This document shows positions 12,862-33,423 of a stretch of 45,461 nt of DNA, piece by piece (the first letter of the stretch is position 1; each line of letters begins with the position of its first letter). A model generated the notes under the pieces. The model had not been told where the DNA came from and searched no databases. It was given only the letters and a program-made list of their open reading frames with translations. The stretch spans positions 1-45,461 of IMG/VR virus record IMGVR_UViG_3300025151_000070; one strand, given 5' to 3'. The DNA comes from a virus. A program made the translations under genes and the position numbers.

Positions 12862-13008
12862 ATAAAAAACGTATTTTTTTTAAAAAAATCGCACGACGTC
12901 TCAATGTTCTAGATTCTAATGCTCTATAAATCGCTATAAATAAAAAAAATCTTGACAGCAATAAAACAAAACAAGTAACTTTGACAGTCCGAAGGACAAA
13001 AAAAAAGA

Positions 13009-13078
13009 TTAATGCTCGTTGCTCTTGAATAACATAGAATATTAAATCTATTTCTTATATAATGCTCGGTGTTCTAGA
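13009..13078 (+). repeat. pair of 20-bp direct repeats 50 bp apart
   Basis: TTAATGCTCGTTGCTCTTGA (13009-13028) and ATAATGCTCGGTGTTCTAGA (13059-13078) agree at 16 of 20 positions. A shortened third copy, CTAATGCTCTATA, lies at 12918. The second copy overlaps a perfect TATAAT (13058-13063). They could be operators or tandem start-site elements. Confidence 0.55.
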
Positions 13079-13336
13079 GAGGGTCTTACCGAAAAATTTT
13101 TTCCAAAATTATTCTAGTCGTCGAATTTCACCACCTCACCAGTTTTACCCCAAAAATTCCAACCTTGTTGAAAAAATCGCACTATTTTGTGTGTGGCTTT
13201 TGTTTCCATTTCGGCGCACCCCTCTAATATATTCACGCATTTAAAAAAAAGGTTGAAAATTCAGATTTTGGTTATATATGTTATTTTTTTTGATTTCTTA
13301 GACGACAACTTTTTTTCATTTTTTTGCATTATTTTC

Positions 13337-13405: not shown

Positions 13406-13582
13406 ATGACTGAACTAGAAGGCGTATTGATAATGTGTCTTGTATTAGTTTTGTTTGGTGTCCATCTTTATATGATGGAACGTGCATTCAGTAGAATACG
13501 CGACTTAGAGTACCAACAGAAGCAACAAGACAAGTTAAATCGTATGATTAGTAGCGATTTAGAAAAGTTATCTAAGAGATAG
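13406..13582 (+). CDS. small membrane protein, 58 aa
   Basis: One hydrophobic helix near the N-terminus (VLIMCLVLVLFGVHLYMM, residues about 7-24) is followed by a charged, helical, probably cytoplasmic tail (DLEYQQKQQDKLNRM). The ATG at 13406 was chosen over upstream in-frame codons because GAAAGGAAAAGGA precedes it at correct spacing and the sigma70-like promoter at 13337 lies just upstream. It is the first rightward early gene. A role in host takeover or superinfection exclusion is possible but not shown. Confidence 0.7.
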   Translation: MTELEGVLIMCLVLVLFGVHLYMMERAFSRIRDLEYQQKQQDKLNRMISSDLEKLSKR

Positions 13583-13585
13583 TTG

Positions 13586-13624
13586 AATTAGCTTCGGGGT
13601 GTGGTGAGCCTGGCAACAGAAATC
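13586..13624 (+). other. intergenic stem-loop
   Basis: GTGGTGA and TCACCAC form a 7-bp stem with a 15-nt loop, in the gap between the two early membrane-protein genes, close to the second gene's ribosome binding site. It may tune translation or transcript stability. Confidence 0.4.
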
Positions 13625-13657
13625 ACCACTTAACTTAACAAACGAAAGGAATATAAA

Positions 13658-13828: not shown

Positions 13829-13836
13829 CACAAAGA

Positions 13837-13871
13837 TACCCTGGGGCTAACAACCCTGGGGTATTTTTTTT
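13837..13871 (+). terminator. rho-independent terminator
   Basis: TACCCTGGGG and CCCTGGGGTA form a 10-bp stem with two G-U pairs and a 7-nt loop, followed directly by eight T residues (13864-13871). It ends the first rightward unit. Confidence 0.85.
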
Positions 13872-13898: not shown

Positions 13899-13941
13899 TA
13901 GAGCTGGACTATCGTCCCTCAGTCCAGCTCTATCCCCCGAC
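13899..13941 (+). other. stem-loop plus CCCCCGAC module, copy 1
   Basis: A perfect 12-bp stem (13899-13910 with 13921-13932) encloses a 10-nt loop. CCCCCGAC (13934-13941) follows 1 nt later. A 12-bp perfect palindrome, AGCTCTAGAGCT (13894-13905), overlaps the left arm. The same architecture recurs at 13974 and 14523. Confidence 0.7.
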
Positions 13942-13973
13942 GATTTCTAGGGTGTGCTTGATTATTGGGGTTT

Positions 13974-14021
13974 GACTAGCTAGATAAAAAACACATCTAG
14001 CTAGTCGGAGGTCTCCCCGAC
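13974..14021 (+). other. stem-loop plus CCCCGAC module, copy 2
   Basis: A perfect 12-bp stem, GACTAGCTAGAT (13974-13985) with ATCTAGCTAGTC (13995-14006), encloses an A-rich 9-nt loop. CCCCGAC lies at 14015-14021. A second inverted repeat, GTCTCCC (14011-14017) with GGGAGAC (14032-14038), follows, close to the end of the minus-strand gene at 14051. Confidence 0.7.
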
Positions 14022-14050
14022 TTTTACATCAGGGAGACAAGAGAAGTAGA

Positions 14051-14410
14051 TTATAAATCTACGCTTTCGATTTTGACTGATAGTCTAGGATAACAATCGA
14101 CTGGCTTTTTTTCGCCTTCTATCGATTTATTAACTTGATAAACGAATTCGTCTTTATATTTCCTGATTAATTCGTTCCCTTCGGCAACGTTTAACACGTC
14201 TTTATTTTGTACTATTTCGATAATTCGGCTCATATCTTTATGAACTGCTTTATCTTGTTGATTTGTCAAAACCCTTGTCGCATTATCAACAATACGACCT
14301 TCGTTTGAGGAAGCTTCAAGAACGTCAATGTCCATTTCTTTTAGTTCTTCTTTGCTTAAACCTGTTTTGACCATAAGTTTAGCAAAAGCTTCTTGTTTTA
14401 ATTTACTCAT
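14051..14410 (-). CDS. lone minus-strand hypothetical protein, 119 aa
   Basis: This is the only leftward gene inside the rightward early region. The protein is helical and charged: EAFAKLMVKTGLSKEELKEM could be a helix-turn-helix-like start, and RIIEIVQNKDVLNVAEGNEL is a further helix. No strong Shine-Dalgarno precedes the ATG. Hairpin plus C4-5GAC modules lie on both sides. Its isolation and orientation suggest a regulator or a separately expressed function, but no family is recognised. Confidence 0.65.
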   Translation of the reverse strand: MSKLKQEAFAKLMVKTGLSKEELKEMDIDVLEASSNEGRIVDNATRVLTNQQDKAVHKDMSRIIEIVQNKDVLNVAEGNELIRKYKDEFVYQVNKSIEGEKKPVDCYPRLSVKIESVDL

Positions 14411-14522
14411 AAAATCAATCTACGTCTAAAAATCGGGATTTCCTAGAAATACTTTGTAAATATAAAAGATTTTTCGTCTTGACCGACTGACTAGTCTAAA
14501 ATTCAAGCTTGACTAACTCTAT

Positions 14523-14692
14523 GAGCTAGACTAAGTCTAGTCTAGCTCTCTACCCCCGACAATATAGACTATGCTGGACAATTGAGTTCTAGGTATTGTC
14601 GCTAGGATTTTGTAAGTTCAGATATGAAAAAAGACCCGATAGCAACCAAGTCAGCGACGATTTCAGGCGTAGCGTCGGGGAAAGGTAATAAT
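14523..14692 (+). promoter_or_regulatory. structured leader with stem-loop module copy 3 and competing pairings
   Basis: An 11-bp stem, GAGCTAGACTA (14523-14533) with TAGTCTAGCTC (14538-14548), is followed by CCCCCGAC (14553-14560). CGACAATA (14557-14564) can pair with TATTGTCG (14594-14601). Alternatively CCCCGAC can pair with GTCGGGG (14674-14680), which abuts the ribosome binding site (GGGGAAAGG) of the gene at 14693. CCCGA (14635-14639) could also pair with TCGGG at 14675-14679. These pairings exclude one another, so the leader may act as a switch. No known riboswitch class was recognised. Confidence 0.55.
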
Positions 14693-15887: not shown

Positions 15888-16955
15888 ATGTGTGGTATAT
15901 ATGGTATAGCAAAGTCTCCGACGCCGTACACTAAGAGACAACATAAAGTTGTCAAAAAGGTGTTGCGTGAAATAGCAATAGATAGCCAGTCGCGTGGTTC
16001 TCATTCGTCTGGTATTGCTAAAGTCGGAACTAGCACTAGAATATATAAATCACTATTGCCGTCTGAGAAGTTTGTAGATACAAAAGAATATAATGAGGCA
16101 GTCAAGTCATTACTAGACGCTTCATACATATTGCTTGGACATACACGCTTCGCCACAGAAGGAGCAATAGTCAAATCGAACGCACACCCATTTAGAGTAG
16201 GCAACGTCGTTGGCGCTCATAATGGTTGCGTTTACAATATTAAAGAAATGCAAGGTAAACTAGACAAACAATGTCCAGTAGACAGCCAGCTTATCTTTAA
16301 GTCAATTAACGATAATGATAATATACAGGAAGCAGTCAAAGATTTTGACAGCGACTTTGCGTTATCGTTTGTTAAAGAAAACCCAATGGTATTGTATTTA
16401 TGTAGAGAGACAAATCGTCCTTTACACGTCGCATACGTACCTGAACTAAAAACGTTGTTCTATGCAAGTGAAGCGTCGTTTATTAATGATGCTTTAATAA
16501 TGCATAATTTAGACGCAGACGTTTATAGTCTTAACAAAAATACATTATATGCTTTTGATACGTCAAGGTTTGACGATTTAAAGACTAATGTAGAAAAGAC
16601 GTTGTTCAAGTATGAAAGCAGAACGTATAGATGGAATATCAATCAATACCCGACAAATCGTGGTTGGGGTCATTTCAAAAATGCAAGTCAAGTAGTGGAC
16701 TATAACTCGCAACAAGAACTTGAATTTGATGATGACATAAATGATGATTGGTCTAAACAATGGCTTAATGACGAAGCGTTGGAACTAGCTGAGATATTTC
16801 AGACTAGTCCCAATTCTTGGTTCTTTGACGAAAGCGACGACACTTGGTATTACGTCTGTCCTCACTCAGAAGAGGTATTTAGTGAAGACAAGATGTTTAA
16901 TGACAAGTATGGAATAGACGTCTGGGAAGAGGTAGAGGTCAAAAATGCCTCCTGA
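15888..16955 (+). CDS. class-II glutamine amidotransferase (Ntn hydrolase)
   Basis: This 355-residue protein starts MCGIYGIA, so Cys2 becomes the N-terminal nucleophile after Met removal, as in GlmS, PurF and asparagine synthetase. The other class-II landmarks are present: GHTRFAT (R87), NAHPF (98-102), HNG (111-113) and a following Asp (D132). About residues 1-225 form this glutaminase, which releases ammonia from glutamine. The C-terminal about 130 residues are acidic and unrecognised; no sugar-isomerase or synthetase domain is fused. The 3' end overlaps the amidoligase gene by 11 nt, which strongly suggests that it feeds ammonia, or a glutamyl-transfer activity, to that enzyme. AAAGGAG precedes the ATG. 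Confidence 0.9.
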   Translation: MCGIYGIAKSPTPYTKRQHKVVKKVLREIAIDSQSRGSHSSGIAKVGTSTRIYKSLLPSEKFVDTKEYNEAVKSLLDASYILLGHTRFATEGAIVKSNAHPFRVGNVVGAHNGCVYNIKEMQGKLDKQCPVDSQLIFKSINDNDNIQEAVKDFDSDFALSFVKENPMVLYLCRETNRPLHVAYVPELKTLFYASEASFINDALIMHNLDADVYSLNKNTLYAFDTSRFDDLKTNVEKTLFKYESRTYRWNINQYPTNRGWGHFKNASQVVDYNSQQELEFDDDINDDWSKQWLNDEALELAEIFQTSPNSWFFDESDDTWYYVCPHSEEVFSEDKMFNDKYGIDVWEEVEVKNAS

Positions 16956-18705
16956 AGGATATAGAGACCAGCCAAACCTTGACGTAGATACAGAAGTCTC
17001 TTGTTGTGAAGACTGTAATGAAGACGTCGTCGAAGATGGCAATCATTACACCAATTCAAGTGGCGACCCTTTGTGCGATAGTTGTGCAGAGAATTACGTC
17101 AATTGTGAATGTGGAGAGAATATTCATCAAGATGACGCTATGGAGTTTGATGGTCAATACTTCTGCGAGCCTTGTTATGATGAAGCAGTGATGTGTTGTC
17201 CTTCTTGCGACTACGAGATGTATCGTGATGATATGAGTTGGTCAGACAGGTATGGAGACTATCTCTGTGATAGTTGCTACGAAGAACACGATGAATATAG
17301 TCTACCTAATTGGGAAGTCTATAGCCACAATTATGTTCAAAGCAGAACTGACTGGGTACACCCTGATAGACATTATTACCCGAAAGACACTTTTCGTTGG
17401 ATAAAGTCTAAAAGGTATATCGGTCTAGAACTGGAGACTAACTTCAGGTATGACGAGAGCTTCGGAGAAGTCCAAGACGACCTGAACTACGAACTCGGAA
17501 GAACAAGAGACACTTCTAAGAGAGACAGTTATCATACTCTTGGTATGTCTAACTTTGTCTCCGACGGAAGCGTCACAAGTCAAAGGCACCGATATGGTGG
17601 CGAACTTGTTATGCGACCAAGACGTGGCGATAGACTATTACACGATGCTGACTTCTTTTGTAAGCGTCTGGAAAACCAGTGGAACGCATATGCGTCTTGG
17701 AAGACTGGACTTCACTTACATATAGACGTCCAAGACTACGACTGGATACACGCGTCAGTCTTAACACTATTTACTAAACTGATGGAACCTCATATTTATA
17801 CGTGGTTGCCAAAGTCTAGATACTATGGTAGTGGTGGACAACGTTGGGGCAGACCAGTTTCACAAGTAGTCGGTGATTTCAAATACATTGGCGATAGAGA
17901 TAGTTTTATAGAGTTCTATTACGACAATGGTGGTTATACAAACGAAAAGTATAACGACAAAAGATATCATGGACTGAATTGGCATAGCCATTTCCAAGCC
18001 AATCAAGGTCTGGAAATACGATATCACTCAGGTACTTTGCAAACAGACAAAATCAAGTACTGGACGAAATTCTGGACACAAGTCGTGGATAGGTCTTACG
18101 AAATAGCAGAAGACATTAAAGACAATATGATTAGTTATTCCAACTTTGGAAATACTGATATGTTTAAGTCTTTATGGGTTTCTTCTACTGTAAACACCAA
18201 GTTGTCGCAGATGTCAAATCAGTATAGTCAATATACTGACTATGGTGATAGTTCTGACGTATTTGATTATAGGAAAAAGTCTGAGGTATTACGACGATAT
18301 CTCGGTCTGCCTAAAAAAGATAGACCTTACTTATTGCAACCTATGGTACATTATTTGAGACATAGAGCAAATAGGTCTTGTATGTCGTTAGATAATATCT
18401 ACGACGTGTTCGACATAGACGCTGATACAAAGAGCTACTTCCAAAATAGGAAGGAGCAATTATATAATGCTATGGAAGAACATACAGCGACTAAATTCTA
18501 CAACGACGTATTTTCTAACGTCGATAGTATTGTAGAGTTTAACAAAGAGAAAATGGCATTTGAGTACAAAGACATATTTAAGGATACGTTCTTACTTGTG
18601 AACGACGTTAGATGTGAGGTGTGGAAACAAATGTCCGAACAAAAACAAAGTGTAGACTATGAATACCATCTAGTCAATTATAGTAATTATGATACTACTT
18701 TGTAA
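16945..18705 (+). CDS. Amidoligase_2-like enzyme with N-terminal zinc-finger array
   Basis: This is a 586-residue protein. Residues about 18-115 hold repeated Cys-x2-Cys pairs (CCEDC, CDSC, CECG, CEPC, CPSC, CDSC) like LIM or treble-clef zinc fingers. Residues about 150-420 match the glutamine-synthetase-fold Amidoligase_2 family: IGLELET (E162, E164), DGS (207-209), GGELVM (E220), TGLHLHID (H257, H259, D261) and LEIRYHSGT (R359, H361). Such enzymes are predicted to form amide bonds using ATP, and Pfam notes neighbours that are glutamine amidotransferase-like or Aig2 cyclotransferases; both kinds are present in this genome. The C-terminal about 150 residues are helical and unrecognised. A GAGGT precedes the ATG within the upstream gene. 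The substrate is unknown. Confidence 0.85.
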   Translation: MPPEGYRDQPNLDVDTEVSCCEDCNEDVVEDGNHYTNSSGDPLCDSCAENYVNCECGENIHQDDAMEFDGQYFCEPCYDEAVMCCPSCDYEMYRDDMSWSDRYGDYLCDSCYEEHDEYSLPNWEVYSHNYVQSRTDWVHPDRHYYPKDTFRWIKSKRYIGLELETNFRYDESFGEVQDDLNYELGRTRDTSKRDSYHTLGMSNFVSDGSVTSQRHRYGGELVMRPRRGDRLLHDADFFCKRLENQWNAYASWKTGLHLHIDVQDYDWIHASVLTLFTKLMEPHIYTWLPKSRYYGSGGQRWGRPVSQVVGDFKYIGDRDSFIEFYYDNGGYTNEKYNDKRYHGLNWHSHFQANQGLEIRYHSGTLQTDKIKYWTKFWTQVVDRSYEIAEDIKDNMISYSNFGNTDMFKSLWVSSTVNTKLSQMSNQYSQYTDYGDSSDVFDYRKKSEVLRRYLGLPKKDRPYLLQPMVHYLRHRANRSCMSLDNIYDVFDIDADTKSYFQNRKEQLYNAMEEHTATKFYNDVFSNVDSIVEFNKEKMAFEYKDIFKDTFLLVNDVRCEVWKQMSEQKQSVDYEYHLVNYSNYDTTL

Positions 18706-18769: not shown

Positions 18770-18961
18770 ATGAAATTTTTACAAAAGCTCGACAAAAAGC
18801 TCGACACGAGACAATATAGTTCTTGGAATTATAGATTATTTTTTATAACTTGTGGAGTGAAAATTTATATTAACAGAATTGCAGGTAGTCAAAGAGGTTA
18901 TGCAAAGACATCTTTTGGTCTGGCGACGCTACCTGCAATACAACAATGGGAAATAAAATGA
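18770..18961 (+). CDS. possible small basic protein, 63 aa
   Basis: This frame opens just after the terminator and ends in an ATGA overlap with the next gene's likely start, which favours it. Against it: no ribosome binding site precedes the ATG, and the frame covers a 12-nt tandem repeat (AAAAGCTCGACA at 18783 and 18795) and a long hairpin (18878-18939). The product would be basic with a hydrophobic centre (YRLFFITCGVKIYINRI). It may instead be an untranslated leader. Confidence 0.35.
   Translation: MKFLQKLDKKLDTRQYSSWNYRLFFITCGVKIYINRIAGSQRGYAKTSFGLATLPAIQQWEIK
18878..18939 (+). other. 11-bp stem-loop before the run of tiny genes
   Basis: ATTGCAGGTAG (18878-18888) pairs perfectly with CTACCTGCAAT (18929-18939), enclosing 40 nt that can fold further. 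It ends 18 bases before the ATG at 18958. It is not a tRNA: the T-loop sequence and cloverleaf spacing are missing. Confidence 0.55.
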
Positions 18962-20077: not shown

Positions 20078-20285
20078 AAGAGTAGATAAAGAATTAGACG
20101 CATTACTTCTTTATCTAGAGAAATTAGAAGAAGACTACGCAGAAGCAGTAGCAAATGTAGATAAAAACTTTAATCAGTATAAAAGATATCAAAAGGCATA
20201 TAATATATTATGTAATTATTTTGATTATATACCTCAGGATGATAAAGATGCGGTTGATAAAGAACTTATGAAACTTGACTTATAA
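20052..20285 (+). CDS. coiled-coil protein, 77 aa
   Basis: The protein is almost all helix with heptad-like hydrophobics (ELDALLLYLEKLEEDYAEAV), then Tyr-rich YQKAYNILCNYFDYIP. GGAG precedes the ATG. It is the last gene before an internal promoter. Function unknown. Confidence 0.6.
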   Translation: MSKGYEQFKRVDKELDALLLYLEKLEEDYAEAVANVDKNFNQYKRYQKAYNILCNYFDYIPQDDKDAVDKELMKLDL

Positions 20286-28212: not shown

Positions 28213-31200
28213 TTAGTTTCTTTTTAATAATCCTTTCAGAGGTCTATCTGCACCCTCTGCTCTGTATCCTTCTTGTTCTTTTAATCTCTTCTCCCTAATT
28301 TTTTCTTGTCTTTCTAATGCTTTTTGATAAGATTCTTCTGAAGGGAAGTCTTCTCTTAGTTTACCAAAAGCCATCTTTCCTCTTCCTGGTATAATTGTTA
28401 CACCATCATCATCTACAAAACCAAACTCATCTTTAACGTTTGCTTCATAGTGTTTTTGATGTCGATTTACAAATCTTGCATAATATTCCATTACTTTTTT
28501 TTCAGAATAATCATCTGGAACAATTTGTAAACTAGGGAACCTTCTAACGTAAATAGATTCGTTCCAAGTTTTTATTTTTTCTCTTGCATCTGCCATCACT
28601 TCATCATAGTTATCTAGCTTATCAGGCATATATCCTATTTCTGGGTCGCCTTTTTCGTTGTAAGTAAACAACAACATATTATTTACTTCGCTTATTATGT
28701 TTGACTTCATAGAAGAAACCTTAGCTCTTTCAAAACCTTCTGGATATTGAGCAAGCTCTATATCTGTGAAAGGTACAACAAGCGGAGAATAATGATATCT
28801 TTTAAAGAAAGCATTAGGCATAGAACCAAATATAGGACCATTTTCTCTTAATAGTTTTCTCATTCTAATATCTATAGGTTCACTACCTTGGAAAAACAAT
28901 CCTTCTACCAGCCCTTCATCTCCTGGTTCTCCAAAAAGATTTCTTGTTAATTTAACAATATCGTCAACAATCAAAGGCTTAACAGCAAACTCTACACTAC
29001 TATAAAATGTATCCATGTTTGCTATAATATCTCCAAAAGAACCTAAAGTACCAGCCCCTGCTAGTATGTTTAATCCATCTTCAAGGCTAAGCTGTCCCTT
29101 CTGTCCTTGGAAAAATTGTTTATTTATCTTATCAATATAATTTTTTTGTTCTCTTTGTCCATAAAAAGCTCTGTCTCCAGATAGTGCTTGCAAGAAAGCG
29201 TCTTTTGCTGATACAGCCATAGTACCTCCAGTTGCACCATATGCTAAAGTATATAAAGGTTGTAGTATGTTTCCATTTTCTATTTCAAACTTATTGTATT
29301 CAAAAGTATATCTAGTTTGTCTTATAGGGAATCTTTTAAATAGTAAAAGTGTTTTTGTATACTGGTCAGTAAAACCTAAAGCATCTAACTCAAAGTCTCT
29401 ACCCATCTGTGATTGCTGAGCATATCTTTCCATAGCTCCCATAATTTTTTTCTTTTGTCTTAATTGAGCTGGAGTAGTATAAGTTCTATTGATAACAGAA
29501 TCTTTAAACTTTTCAAGCTCTTTTGGATTTAAATTAAATACTTGTTTTAATTTATTTGTTGCATAAGATTTTCTTTGTGCTCCAGTTAGTACAGTTGGCA
29601 TACCAATATCAAATCCAGGTTTACCATCTAACATCTTAGTAAGCTTTATAATATTGTCTTCTGCAGCAGAAGCAGCAACGATTTTATTCCAAACGTTAAC
29701 AGTCATAAATGGCTTAGAAGCAACATCTTGTGCTACCTGCCAATAATCATTAGCACCCCAAACTTCTCTAGCATAGCTTTCAGTAAGACCTCCAGTTGCT
29801 CTAGACTGACCTCTTTGTAAAGCTCTACTACCACCAAGAAGTTCATCATACAAATTCAAAGCTGTAGCTCCAGAACGTTTTACCATATCTCTTACCTGAG
29901 GATTTGTCCAATAATTTACCAAACCTCTTACTGTAGAAGCAGCTCCAAGTTGAGGCAATGTAGAAATAAATGTCTGAGTTAAATTAGGAATAACAGCAGT
30001 ACCAAAGTTAATTTTAAAGAAGAACTCTATCTCTGCAGCTTTTAAAGCTCCAGCTGTAAAGTCGTTAAATCTACTAAATGCATCTTCACCAGTAATTGTT
30101 TCTTTTAAAAGTCTTACCGCATCTTTCTCTTTGACAATAAAAGGTGGTAGTTTATCAGGACTGTTTCCTTTGAATACTCTACCTATATAGCTTCCTGCTC
30201 CTTGCAATTCTATAGAATCATCTATTTGATTTACAATAGTTTCAAATAAAGCTCCTTCTGGCATAAACATTTTGTTTAATTCTATAGCTTTTGTAGAACC
30301 ATTTATATAGTCTGTTCCAAGAGTTACTACATTTTTATCCAACAAGTTAGTTTTCTTTTGTTCAGCCAAAGCCATGATATCTACGCTTTTTCCTTTACCT
30401 AAAAGTTTTTTACTTTTCTGTAAAGGAGCATATGTTTTAAATCCATCGTTATATATTTGAGCTTGTATATTAGCCCATACATCATAGTTTGGAACATCAG
30501 ATAAGCTACCAGGCTTTGCCTCTAAAGCATCTCTTGTCATTGTCCAAACGTCTGCAAAAGCTCTCTCTGCTTCATCTTTAGAACCAGCAAGTTTTTTTAC
30601 ATAATCTTCTAGGTATTCTGTTAATTCTGCTTTTTTGGTTTCGTCTAAATTTCTTAAAGCTACATCAGAATCTAAACTTAGATTGTCTAGCTCTTTCATA
30701 ATAACTTTCATCTTTTGATTTATGTTTAACATATTAGAATATATAGCATCTCTTATTGGTTTTTTTATAACACTAGGTAGGTAGTATTTTTGTCTACCTG
30801 CTAGTTTCATTTTTGTTGAAAGAGCATCATCGTATATAGGGTCAAAGGTTCTTTTTAAATTTTTAACAATCTTAACTCTGTTGTTTAAGAAAAATCTTTC
30901 TTCTGGTGTTAATGGAAACTCTGTGCCTTTTCTGTCTGCTTTTCTTATAAGTCTTTTATTTTCTTTTATCATTTCATCTAAATAGTCTACACCAGTTATT
31001 TCTCCACCCTGTAGCTTCTGATATGTTTTCCAGGCAGAAGGTATTTTTGTTCCATTCTGAAGTACAATTTCGTCAGTTTGACCTACCAACCATCTTTCTG
31101 TTAATCTACTTTGAAAAGGATTATATCCAAACATTCTTGAAACAGGCAACACAGCCTTTCTTAAACTTATAACAGATGTGTCCATACCTAAAGCCTGCTG

Positions 31201-33423
31201 AAAAGTAACTACTCTATCTGTAGCTGTTGAGGTAATGTTTCTGTCAAGTTGAGCAAACATTCTTGTAAGAGTTTTAGCTTGAGGACTTTGTAAAGATGAC
31301 TGAAATCCAGCAAATAAAGACCTTGCAAAGTTTTCAGCAATAGATGCTCCTGATGTACCAGAAATATTCTCAAGTTCTCCAAAAAATTCTCTTCTTATAT
31401 ATTCTTCATGGTTTCTTAATAGAGCCATATCTCCAAATTGTTCTGTAACAAGTCTCATTTCTATATCAGACATATCGTTTATGTCAGGAAGTTTGTCTGG
31501 ATTTTGAAATTTCTTTATATCGTATTCTGCACCTACGTTTGCTATAGCTCTATCATAGTCTCCTTTTTTCAAGCCATGCTTTCCTGAGTAAGAATCATCT
31601 CTTAGACCCTCTAAAGCCTTTCTTCTAATTCTAGTCATTGCAAACTTTTGATTAAATACTCCCTTATTATTTGCTTCAAATCTTTTTTTCAGTCCAGGTT
31701 GAGATGTATAGAATTTAAAGAATAAATCAGCGTTTTCTTCATCTAACGAATATCTTAATCTTCCTGCTTTTACTTCAAAAGATATACCAGTATCGGTAAC
31801 TTCCATAGAGTTTCTATCTATCTTAACGTCTAAATCTTTTGGTATTTCATGTAGAGTAGGTTCTAGACTACCATCTGCTCTTACTACCTTACCTTTAATA
31901 TTAACATTCATATATGGTCCAGTAGCCATACCTTTTGGCAGCTGTCTTGAATTTAATCTTTTAATAGCCATGTCTGATTGGTCTGTTTCATAACCTATTA
32001 GCTGCATGTTACCATCTGCGTCTGTTTCAAAGATAGGTTTTGATGTTACATCTGTTGAAGTGTTTTCTACTTTAATTAAAGGGTCTTGAACTCTAGTATA
32101 TATATCTTTGCTTCTTTTTCTAGAGCCCGCTAAACTAACTGCCTCTTCTGCAGCATCAGCAAACTCTTCCAAGCTCATAGACCTTGTATCTACACCTGGA
32201 GCAAACTTACCAGTTTTGTATGCATTTCTAAGACTTGATGGTACATATGAAGCCAGAACAACGCTAGTCGTTAAAGTTGCAAGACCTACTTCTCCACCTT
32301 CTATGTCTGATATAACCTTTCTCATTTCAGGTTCTACGATAGCAGCAGTTAAGAATCCTCCAGCTATCTCTCCACCAATACCATACTCAACACCTTTTGT
32401 AGTAACACCTCTTGGTCTAAAACCTGTTTCTACCTGAAGTTTTCTGCTTGTAGGCATAATAGGACCAAGAAGACCACCTTTGGTGTATCTGTTCATACCA
32501 AATCCAGTAGCACCACCTATTGCAATACTATAACCTTTTAAAAAATCTTTAGGGTCTGCATAGTTTACTAAGTCTTTTGCAAATAAATTATATCTTTCCA
32601 TTTCACTTAAACCATCAAATTTGTCCAAGTCATAGTCTCCTGCAATAACAGCATCTCTAAGATTTAAAGTTGAGCCGTATAACATATCTAGGTTAGCAAA
32701 AGTAATTCCTTCATATCCCAAAATTCTATTCATATCCGTTACATAAGGTTTAATAGCTCTTTTAGGCATAATTCCTTTTTTAACCAGTTGTTTTGCTATA
32801 TAATTATTAACAGAATTTAAACCTAAATTTTTTGCACCTATGTTTATTCCTGTTTTTGCAAGCTTACCTAAACCTAAAGAGCCTGCAGTAATCAAAGCAT
32901 TTTCTCTTGAAGGCATTAAGAAACCTCCTATTCCAACTCCAAGATTATACATCCAACTTTCGTCTCCAAGAGGTAAGTCAAATGGTTGTTCACCGTAAAG
33001 AACACTTTCTGCTATACCAGGAATACTTCTATTGTAAGCGTCTTTAATCATTCTTCCACCAGGTCCATTATATGCACCTATTGACCATCTTAACGCATTG
33101 TTCCAATATCCAAGAGAGTATTCTAACTCTTCGTCTGTAGGAGCTATATAATTTCTTTCTTCTTTAGGCGGTCTACCTCTTTCGCTAAGAAGTCTAGGGT
33201 CGTCGTCTTCTTTTATTTTAGCTTTTAATTCTTCAATTCTTTTTAACCTTGCAGGGTCATTAAAATAAGAATCAGCTTCGGAATAAGGATTAGGGTTCCA
33301 ATCTGGCATTAATGGAATTAATTTTAAGTTAGGGTTTCCTGTATATGCATCAAAACCAGTTTGCTTATTACTTGATAGAGCGCTTGAAAAGTCTATCTGC
33401 GGATTTGTTGGGCCATTAGACAA
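28213..33423 (-). CDS. giant internal virion / DNA-ejection protein, 1736 aa
   Basis: This is the largest gene in the window. The protein is mainly helical with several Gly/Ala-rich amphipathic or membrane-like stretches, for example around residues 160-200 and 300-320 and in the last 400 (LAYGATGGTMAVSAKDAFLQ). Large polyproteins of this kind form the internal core or trans-envelope ejection channel of podoviruses (T7 gp16 is the functional analogue). The block LFKRFPIRQTRYTFEYNKFE is one I recall from large marine phage virion proteins. The start is TTG at 33423: AGAGGA lies 8 bases upstream and no in-frame ATG is nearby. No lytic transglycosylase motif was recognised. Confidence 0.75.
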   Translation of the reverse strand: MSNGPTNPQIDFSSALSSNKQTGFDAYTGNPNLKLIPLMPDWNPNPYSEADSYFNDPARLKRIEELKAKIKEDDDPRLLSERGRPPKEERNYIAPTDEELEYSLGYWNNALRWSIGAYNGPGGRMIKDAYNRSIPGIAESVLYGEQPFDLPLGDESWMYNLGVGIGGFLMPSRENALITAGSLGLGKLAKTGINIGAKNLGLNSVNNYIAKQLVKKGIMPKRAIKPYVTDMNRILGYEGITFANLDMLYGSTLNLRDAVIAGDYDLDKFDGLSEMERYNLFAKDLVNYADPKDFLKGYSIAIGGATGFGMNRYTKGGLLGPIMPTSRKLQVETGFRPRGVTTKGVEYGIGGEIAGGFLTAAIVEPEMRKVISDIEGGEVGLATLTTSVVLASYVPSSLRNAYKTGKFAPGVDTRSMSLEEFADAAEEAVSLAGSRKRSKDIYTRVQDPLIKVENTSTDVTSKPIFETDADGNMQLIGYETDQSDMAIKRLNSRQLPKGMATGPYMNVNIKGKVVRADGSLEPTLHEIPKDLDVKIDRNSMEVTDTGISFEVKAGRLRYSLDEENADLFFKFYTSQPGLKKRFEANNKGVFNQKFAMTRIRRKALEGLRDDSYSGKHGLKKGDYDRAIANVGAEYDIKKFQNPDKLPDINDMSDIEMRLVTEQFGDMALLRNHEEYIRREFFGELENISGTSGASIAENFARSLFAGFQSSLQSPQAKTLTRMFAQLDRNITSTATDRVVTFQQALGMDTSVISLRKAVLPVSRMFGYNPFQSRLTERWLVGQTDEIVLQNGTKIPSAWKTYQKLQGGEITGVDYLDEMIKENKRLIRKADRKGTEFPLTPEERFFLNNRVKIVKNLKRTFDPIYDDALSTKMKLAGRQKYYLPSVIKKPIRDAIYSNMLNINQKMKVIMKELDNLSLDSDVALRNLDETKKAELTEYLEDYVKKLAGSKDEAERAFADVWTMTRDALEAKPGSLSDVPNYDVWANIQAQIYNDGFKTYAPLQKSKKLLGKGKSVDIMALAEQKKTNLLDKNVVTLGTDYINGSTKAIELNKMFMPEGALFETIVNQIDDSIELQGAGSYIGRVFKGNSPDKLPPFIVKEKDAVRLLKETITGEDAFSRFNDFTAGALKAAEIEFFFKINFGTAVIPNLTQTFISTLPQLGAASTVRGLVNYWTNPQVRDMVKRSGATALNLYDELLGGSRALQRGQSRATGGLTESYAREVWGANDYWQVAQDVASKPFMTVNVWNKIVAASAAEDNIIKLTKMLDGKPGFDIGMPTVLTGAQRKSYATNKLKQVFNLNPKELEKFKDSVINRTYTTPAQLRQKKKIMGAMERYAQQSQMGRDFELDALGFTDQYTKTLLLFKRFPIRQTRYTFEYNKFEIENGNILQPLYTLAYGATGGTMAVSAKDAFLQALSGDRAFYGQREQKNYIDKINKQFFQGQKGQLSLEDGLNILAGAGTLGSFGDIIANMDTFYSSVEFAVKPLIVDDIVKLTRNLFGEPGDEGLVEGLFFQGSEPIDIRMRKLLRENGPIFGSMPNAFFKRYHYSPLVVPFTDIELAQYPEGFERAKVSSMKSNIISEVNNMLLFTYNEKGDPEIGYMPDKLDNYDEVMADAREKIKTWNESIYVRRFPSLQIVPDDYSEKKVMEYYARFVNRHQKHYEANVKDEFGFVDDDGVTIIPGRGKMAFGKLREDFPSEESYQKALERQEKIREKRLKEQEGYRAEGADRPLKGLLKRN

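Follow-up and report, generated by a model that had tools for sequence, protein, structure and literature searches.

The question raised by this locus is what perfectly paired hairpins are doing on either side of a lone gene that runs against its neighbours. The window (the whole stretch of DNA analysed, which is the whole virus record of 45,461 bases) has late genes running leftward from 12.8 kb, and also from 45.4 down to 25.8 kb, and early genes running rightward from 13.4 to 25.8 kb. Within the early region, a lone leftward gene (14051-14410) lies between a short operon 1, closed by a terminator, and the main early operon 2, which starts at ~14693. The genome encodes an SU10-like capsid protein, a DnaB-type helicase, a RusA-like resolvase, a class II amidotransferase and an amidoligase; no named phage matches the window at the DNA level, and the terminase, amidotransferase and capsid matches to named phages are distant only. 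Elsewhere in the genome, the glutamine amidotransferase and amidoligase genes lie side by side (15888-18705), a possible modification pair, and a late-region protein of 1736 aa (28213-33423) has no Pfam or PHROG match and only marginal PDB matches. The elements of the locus are:

13832-13868, plus strand: terminator T of operon 1, two G-U pairs in the stem, then T8
13899-13932, plus strand: hairpin 1, twin copy 1, TAGAGCTGGACT (10-nt loop) AGTCCAGCTCTA; two AGCTNGAC half-sites, inverted, at a spacing of 20 bp
13934-13941, plus strand: CCCCCGAC tail of copy 1, its C-run conserved in relatives
13974-14006, minus strand: hairpin 2, putative 3'-end hairpin of the minus-strand gene; an intrinsic terminator in the relatives L130/L160 and L048/L157, with no U-tract in the window
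14011-14038, minus strand: hairpin 2b, GTCTCCCCGAC...GGGAGAC, near the stop codon of the minus-strand gene; contains the second CCCCGAC
14051-14410, minus strand: the 119-aa gene, with a conserved S-x-x-EGR motif and a predicted mixed helix/strand fold
14523-14548, plus strand: hairpin 3, twin copy 2, GAGCTAGACTA (4-nt loop) TAGTCTAGCTC; half-sites 15-16 bp apart
14553-14560, plus strand: CCCCCGAC tail of copy 2, as read in the sequence

The preliminary description saw three stems here, at 13899-13932, 13974-14006 and 14523-14548, and all three are indeed perfect: 12 bp with a loop of 10, 12 bp with a loop of 9, and 11 bp with a loop of 4. Stems of at least 11 bp (loops of 3-14) number four in the window, against a mean of 0.19 per shuffle in 100 dinucleotide shuffles; the fourth, 20083-20117, is inside coding DNA. 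None of the same number of dinucleotide shuffles produced a CCCCGAC-tailed stem. CCCCGAC itself occurs four times (0.30 expected), a count reached in 0/100 shuffles; its fourth occurrence reads GTCGGGG, at 14674-14680, over the ribosome-binding site (RBS) of the next gene. The stems are real, conserved and far beyond chance.

Relatives were gathered through the amidotransferase, the 119-aa protein and DNA patterns; further scans with DNA patterns brought in no new family members. The minus-strand gene is present in 27 distinct sequences including the window (~26 other phage sequences), and these share a common order: terminator, hairpin 1, C-run, hairpin 2, hairpin 2b, minus-strand gene, hairpin 3, C-run, operon 2. 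The sequences are related to each other, and counts among them are not counts of independent events. For a few of them the automatic finder chose another stem for hairpin 2, 2b or 3, and there the sequences were read by eye; hairpin 2b is indistinct in L037. Terminator T is either conserved or has another plus-strand terminator in its stead. The stems bracket the lone gene, as had been proposed, in every genome that carries them. Proteins of the minus-strand gene fall to ~19-25% identity with that of the window, but in hairpins 1 and 3 the arms hardly change. Three sequences, L016-L018, have neither the hairpins nor the minus-strand gene at this place. Among hosts, a search for GAGCTAGACTN{3,13}AGTCTAGCTC across the genomes of 84,980 species gave three scattered single matches (one contig each of Paenibacillus, Prevotella and Macrococcus), about what chance would give.

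Are the hairpins copies of one element? When hairpin 1 is used to build a covariance model, hairpin 3 is recovered at E ~1e-4 to 1e-6 and hairpin 2 is not recovered at all; the first and third hairpins are thus a single element present twice, to which hairpin 2 does not belong. Given the tail as well, the model picks out exactly two places per record, both on one strand, in 10 of the 14 records. In the three records of the L010 group, where hairpin 3 has changed to GAAAGCTAG...CTAGCTTTC, it picks out a single place, and in that of L016 none. Its weaker matches on the opposite strand are the same stems read in reverse. The likeness of arms first reported for all three stems holds for hairpins 1 and 3, which have AGAGCTNGACT in common; hairpin 2 has different arms. 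The tails fared similarly. CCCCCGAC, CCCCGAC and CCCCCGAC do follow hairpins 1, 2 and 3 after 1, 8 and 4 nt, respectively, but the second of them (14015-14021) belongs to an arm of hairpin 2b and is no free tail; nor is the tail fixed, its C-run being conserved in all relatives but its GAC not in every one. A conserved RNA element in three copies thus gives way to a twin element and a separate pair of hairpins, while compensatory changes in related phages uphold the conservation of the stems.

The separate pair is the easier to account for. The arms of hairpin 2 are unrelated from lineage to lineage (GACTAGCTAGAT, TAGGGGCTAG, TATACCGGCTA, AAGCCCGAATA, AAAAGCCCAAATA), and in L130/L160 and L048 a minus-strand T-run follows it and the structure is called as a terminator; the assertion that none of the stems is explained by terminators accordingly fails for hairpin 2, which is a minus-strand intrinsic terminator in related lineages. 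The arms of hairpin 2b covary in relatives, and its interior mismatches in L141, L157 and L130/L160 read A-C on the plus strand and hence G-U on the minus; its wobbles fit the minus strand only, and hairpin 2 has one outer U-G that fits the plus. Given the terminator form in relatives and the minus-strand G-U pairs of 2b, the best reading of hairpins 2 and 2b is that they form the 3' end of the minus-strand transcript, with a putative terminator in the window. In lineages where hairpin 2 clearly has the form of a minus-strand terminator, both converging transcripts would end short of hairpin 1.

Hairpins 1 and 3 are not terminators of this kind: no U-tract follows window hairpins 1, 2 or 3 on either strand, which sets all three apart from T (13832-13868, plus strand) and from the minus-strand hairpin 2 of L130/L160 and L048/L157, and no T-run follows hairpins 1 and 3 in relatives. 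One way to understand them is as cis-acting RNA: they might stabilise a 5' leader, be a site of processing, or signal antitermination for operon 2 in the manner of put/nut, and CCCCCGAC would be a recognition sequence displayed single-stranded. Covariation in stem 1 is strong. Across 14 distinct sequences 97.6% of cells are paired; at four of the 12 positions both partners vary, and at one of these all four pair types occur, a level reached by 1/500 shuffled controls and never by slid controls. Stem 3 varies less, and for that reason offers weaker evidence of covariation. The segment spanning hairpins 1, 2 and 2b folds far better than its shuffles on either strand (z -3.4 to -7.4), all tails are oriented towards operon 2, and CCCCGAC is complementary to the GTCGGGG over the RBS.

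Against RNA, the interior pairs of stem 1 are all Watson-Crick (the exception is L157, with its inner three pairs broken), and neither stem 1 nor stem 3 has an interior G-U on either strand; hairpin 1 comes after a terminator and beyond hairpin 2; the motif in the arms occurs in L016-L018, which have no hairpins; and Rfam has no match. The GTCGGGG is missing in L076, L157 and L160, and pairing of the tail with the RBS of the next gene was rejected on that account. Many lineages also show complementarity between loop and tail of hairpin 1 (ATCGTY with GACGAT); a pseudoknot was likewise rejected, the match being broken in L037, L071, L147 and L076. On balance an RNA element seems rather unlikely, while keeping a substantial share of our expectation. 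Immediately 5' of the operon 2 RBS there is also a leader hairpin, CGACG...CGTCG (14655-14680 in the window), which is kept with other sequence in relatives (GACGATT...AATCGTC in L157, GTCGG...CCGAC in L017).

A second perspective supposes that the pairing is partly a product of mutation. Template switching between arms, a process documented to homogenise arms and invert spacers (PMC8604942), would keep stems perfect and make the covariation of stems 1 and 3 partly neutral. The arms change jointly, with no intermediates seen. In L141, L154 and L155, both arms switch together to AGCCAGAC, a change that favours pairing (as RNA, as a cruciform, or through arm homogenisation) over the motif. Joint changes of this sort, including these three sequences with the motif altered in both arms, mean either that pairing matters or that template switching homogenises the arms. 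However, by eye no inverted loop was found in 27 sequences times three hairpins, and the process leaves unexplained both the rebuilding of hairpins 2 and 2b with unrelated arms at the same place and the conserved sequence of the twin arms. We regard it as very unlikely to be the main story.

The arms of hairpins 1 and 3 contain the 8-bp AGCTNGAC, whose N is the most variable position of stem 1, and eight of its 11 copies in the window are in non-coding DNA, which makes up 6% of the window (binomial p 3e-8, indicative only, since the motif was picked after these sites had been seen). Copies or variants outside the hairpins include:

14506-14513, plus strand: an additional AGCTNGAC half-site; the hairpin 3 copy follows after 18 nt, a distance kept at 18-20 nt in most relatives
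14573-14579, plus strand: a degenerate half-site, GCTGGAC, within TAGACTATGCTGGACAA, aligned by eye to the 36-bp direct repeats of L016-L018
15165-15172, plus strand: a single AGCTAGAC, preceding the RBS of the second gene of operon 2
18786-18805, plus strand: two AGCTCGAC sites directly after a plus-strand terminator, upstream of a promoter-like TTGGAA-N16-ATAACT (read by eye)

The intergenic places of the motif and its plus orientation are kept in L007, L010, L013, L032, L071, L133 and others. In the same intergenic region of L016-L018 the motif recurs as a direct repeat at a distance of 36 bp, and the region shows no tendency to fold (z = 0.16); there, upstream of the start of operon 2 (4880-5040 in L017; L016 and L018 too), run ~36-bp direct repeats of TTCCCC(T)GCGTCGGAGCTAGACTATGC. 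Occurrence of the motif without hairpins points to a sequence recognised in duplex DNA, arranged as an inverted pair in the group to which the window belongs.

We therefore lean, tentatively and at somewhat less than an even chance, towards hairpins 1 and 3 as an operator-type element acting at the DNA level to control the minus-strand gene and operon 2. Four observations incline us this way: the motif occurs without hairpins; interior wobble, which these phages do have in hairpin 2b and in terminator T, is missing from stems 1 and 3; in lineages with a true hairpin 2 terminator, hairpin 1 sits in the gap between converging terminators; and half-site spacing (20-21 bp in hairpin 1, 15-16 in hairpin 3, with one exception of 23) survives replacement of the loop. 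No single one of these arguments is decisive alone. Moreover, the N positions stay complementary, though an operator needs no such pairing, and the C-run tail is left without explanation.

The operator reading would mean that two kinds of element are mixed here, DNA sites (hairpins 1 and 3) and RNA structures (hairpins 2 and 2b). The twin copies, each an inverted pair of AGCTNGAC half-sites followed by a C-run, would be a cis-acting site of operator or enhancer type flanking the lone gene in the gap between operons 1 and 2. We infer that AGCTNGAC is the target of a DNA-binding protein of phage or host. Occupying copy 2 within the divergent intergenic region, this protein would balance leftward transcription of the 119-aa gene against that of operon 2 to the right, and copy 1 would be a distal or auxiliary site. 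Hairpins 2 and 2b, at the 3' end of the minus-strand mRNA, would serve as terminator or 3'-end protection.

Two further accounts keep both DNA and pairing. In one, the perfectly paired DNA hairpin or cruciform is itself the recognised signal, its two same-orientation copies switching transcription between the small gene and the next operon; this we hold to be distinctly unlikely. In the other, the hairpins are single-stranded or cruciform sites for replication or processing (an origin, a primosome site or a nuclease site). Perfect stems without wobble, the helicase and resolvase encoded in the genome, and a sign change of the GC skew at ~13-14 kb are in keeping with such a role. But the skew changes at the same place as gene orientation, L016-L018 do without the hairpins, and two copies 600 bp apart around a gene would be unusual for an origin; such a role is very unlikely. 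Where late and early genes diverge (12885-13130), AATGCTCGGTGTTCTAGA-type repeats and a conserved TTCTAGTCGTCGAATTT stretch, present in L015 and L017 too, look like operators or origin iterons.

Where, then, does the locus stand among known systems? At gathering score no Rfam family is found in the window; relaxing the threshold brings up just a piece at 13436-13630 and a weak NsiR1 match on terminator T, and leaves hairpins 1-3 without any match. At the end of that piece, within operon 1, is a hairpin with a CCTGGCAACAGAAA loop (GGTGAGCCTGGCAACAGAAATCACC; 13595-13630), with counterparts at 4130-4170 in L017 and 4140-4182 in L018 and with compensated stem changes between the window and L017. 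It matches the 3' part of the alpha_tmRNA family at 26-33 bits (E ~1e-5), below gathering score; it is a possible tmRNA mimic or decoy, and the likeness may hint at an alphaproteobacterial host.

Integron attC was rejected on reading hairpin 1, where the GTTRRRY and RYYYAAC boxes are both missing. Hairpin promoters of the N4 virion RNA polymerase have stems of 5-7 bp and loops of 3 nt. The stems here are 11-12 bp and the loops 4-10 nt, and on these dimensions an N4-type promoter was rejected, although those promoters, too, are DNA hairpins of conserved sequence in several same-orientation copies upstream of early genes (PMC4496689). A search of the phage for a T7/N4-type RNA polymerase (PF00940) gave no match, with the positive control silent as well. 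The put element of HK022 (PMC9378689) is likewise a phage cis-element of the early region, and stem-loops here could similarly act in cis on RNA polymerase; put, however, works in the nascent early transcript, whereas hairpin 1 follows a terminator and copies 1 and 3 stand 600 bp from each other, on either side of an oppositely directed gene.

The nearest known concept is the PeSL (promoter early stem-loop) cassette of T4-type phages (Arbiol et al. 2010; Comeau et al. 2014, both as cited in PMC4503421). PeSLs are repeated intergenic stem-loops of the early region, located by promoters around small genes, much as here; here, in contrast, a half-site motif makes up the stem, whose sequence is conserved, there are two copies only, no shuffling is seen and no T4-type early promoter is recognised. 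A promoter scan gave 8, against 9.5 in shuffles, and is no richer. A mobile or shuffling module of this type, through which small early genes are gained, lost or swapped by recombination as stem-loop and promoter cassettes, would fit the same-orientation copies around a gene that is missing at this place in L016-L018, the variable loops, and terminators that adjoin probable promoter regions. Yet the flanked gene is of one family in all members found, with no swapping seen; no empty single-copy site was found; and the copies are more strictly conserved than shuffling requires. Such a module is improbable, and PeSL membership is not claimed, because the stem sequence is conserved and no gene exchange was seen.

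The flanked gene offers few leads of its own. Its 119-aa product has no relative in Pfam, PHROG or PDB, and no DNA-binding domain was recognised in it; AlphaFold predicts a confident small mixed fold (pLDDT 86), for which a fold search found nothing below E 0.6 in PDB or viral libraries (the best Z, 5.0 over 83 residues, is uninformative). Against the first plus-strand gene of L015-L018, hhalign gives a probability of 26%. This protein, or another early protein, could be the putative binder of the AGCTNGAC motif.

This is a real, conserved and probably regulatory locus of an uncultured phage group, undescribed in the libraries searched. For the phage family it defines a site of control made up of a twin element, an 8-bp motif that can be tested, and a gene without known fold. 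The case shows that strong covariation can be too quickly taken for RNA; and if the hairpin itself is what is recognised, the locus would be an example of DNA secondary structure as a conserved control signal of phages.
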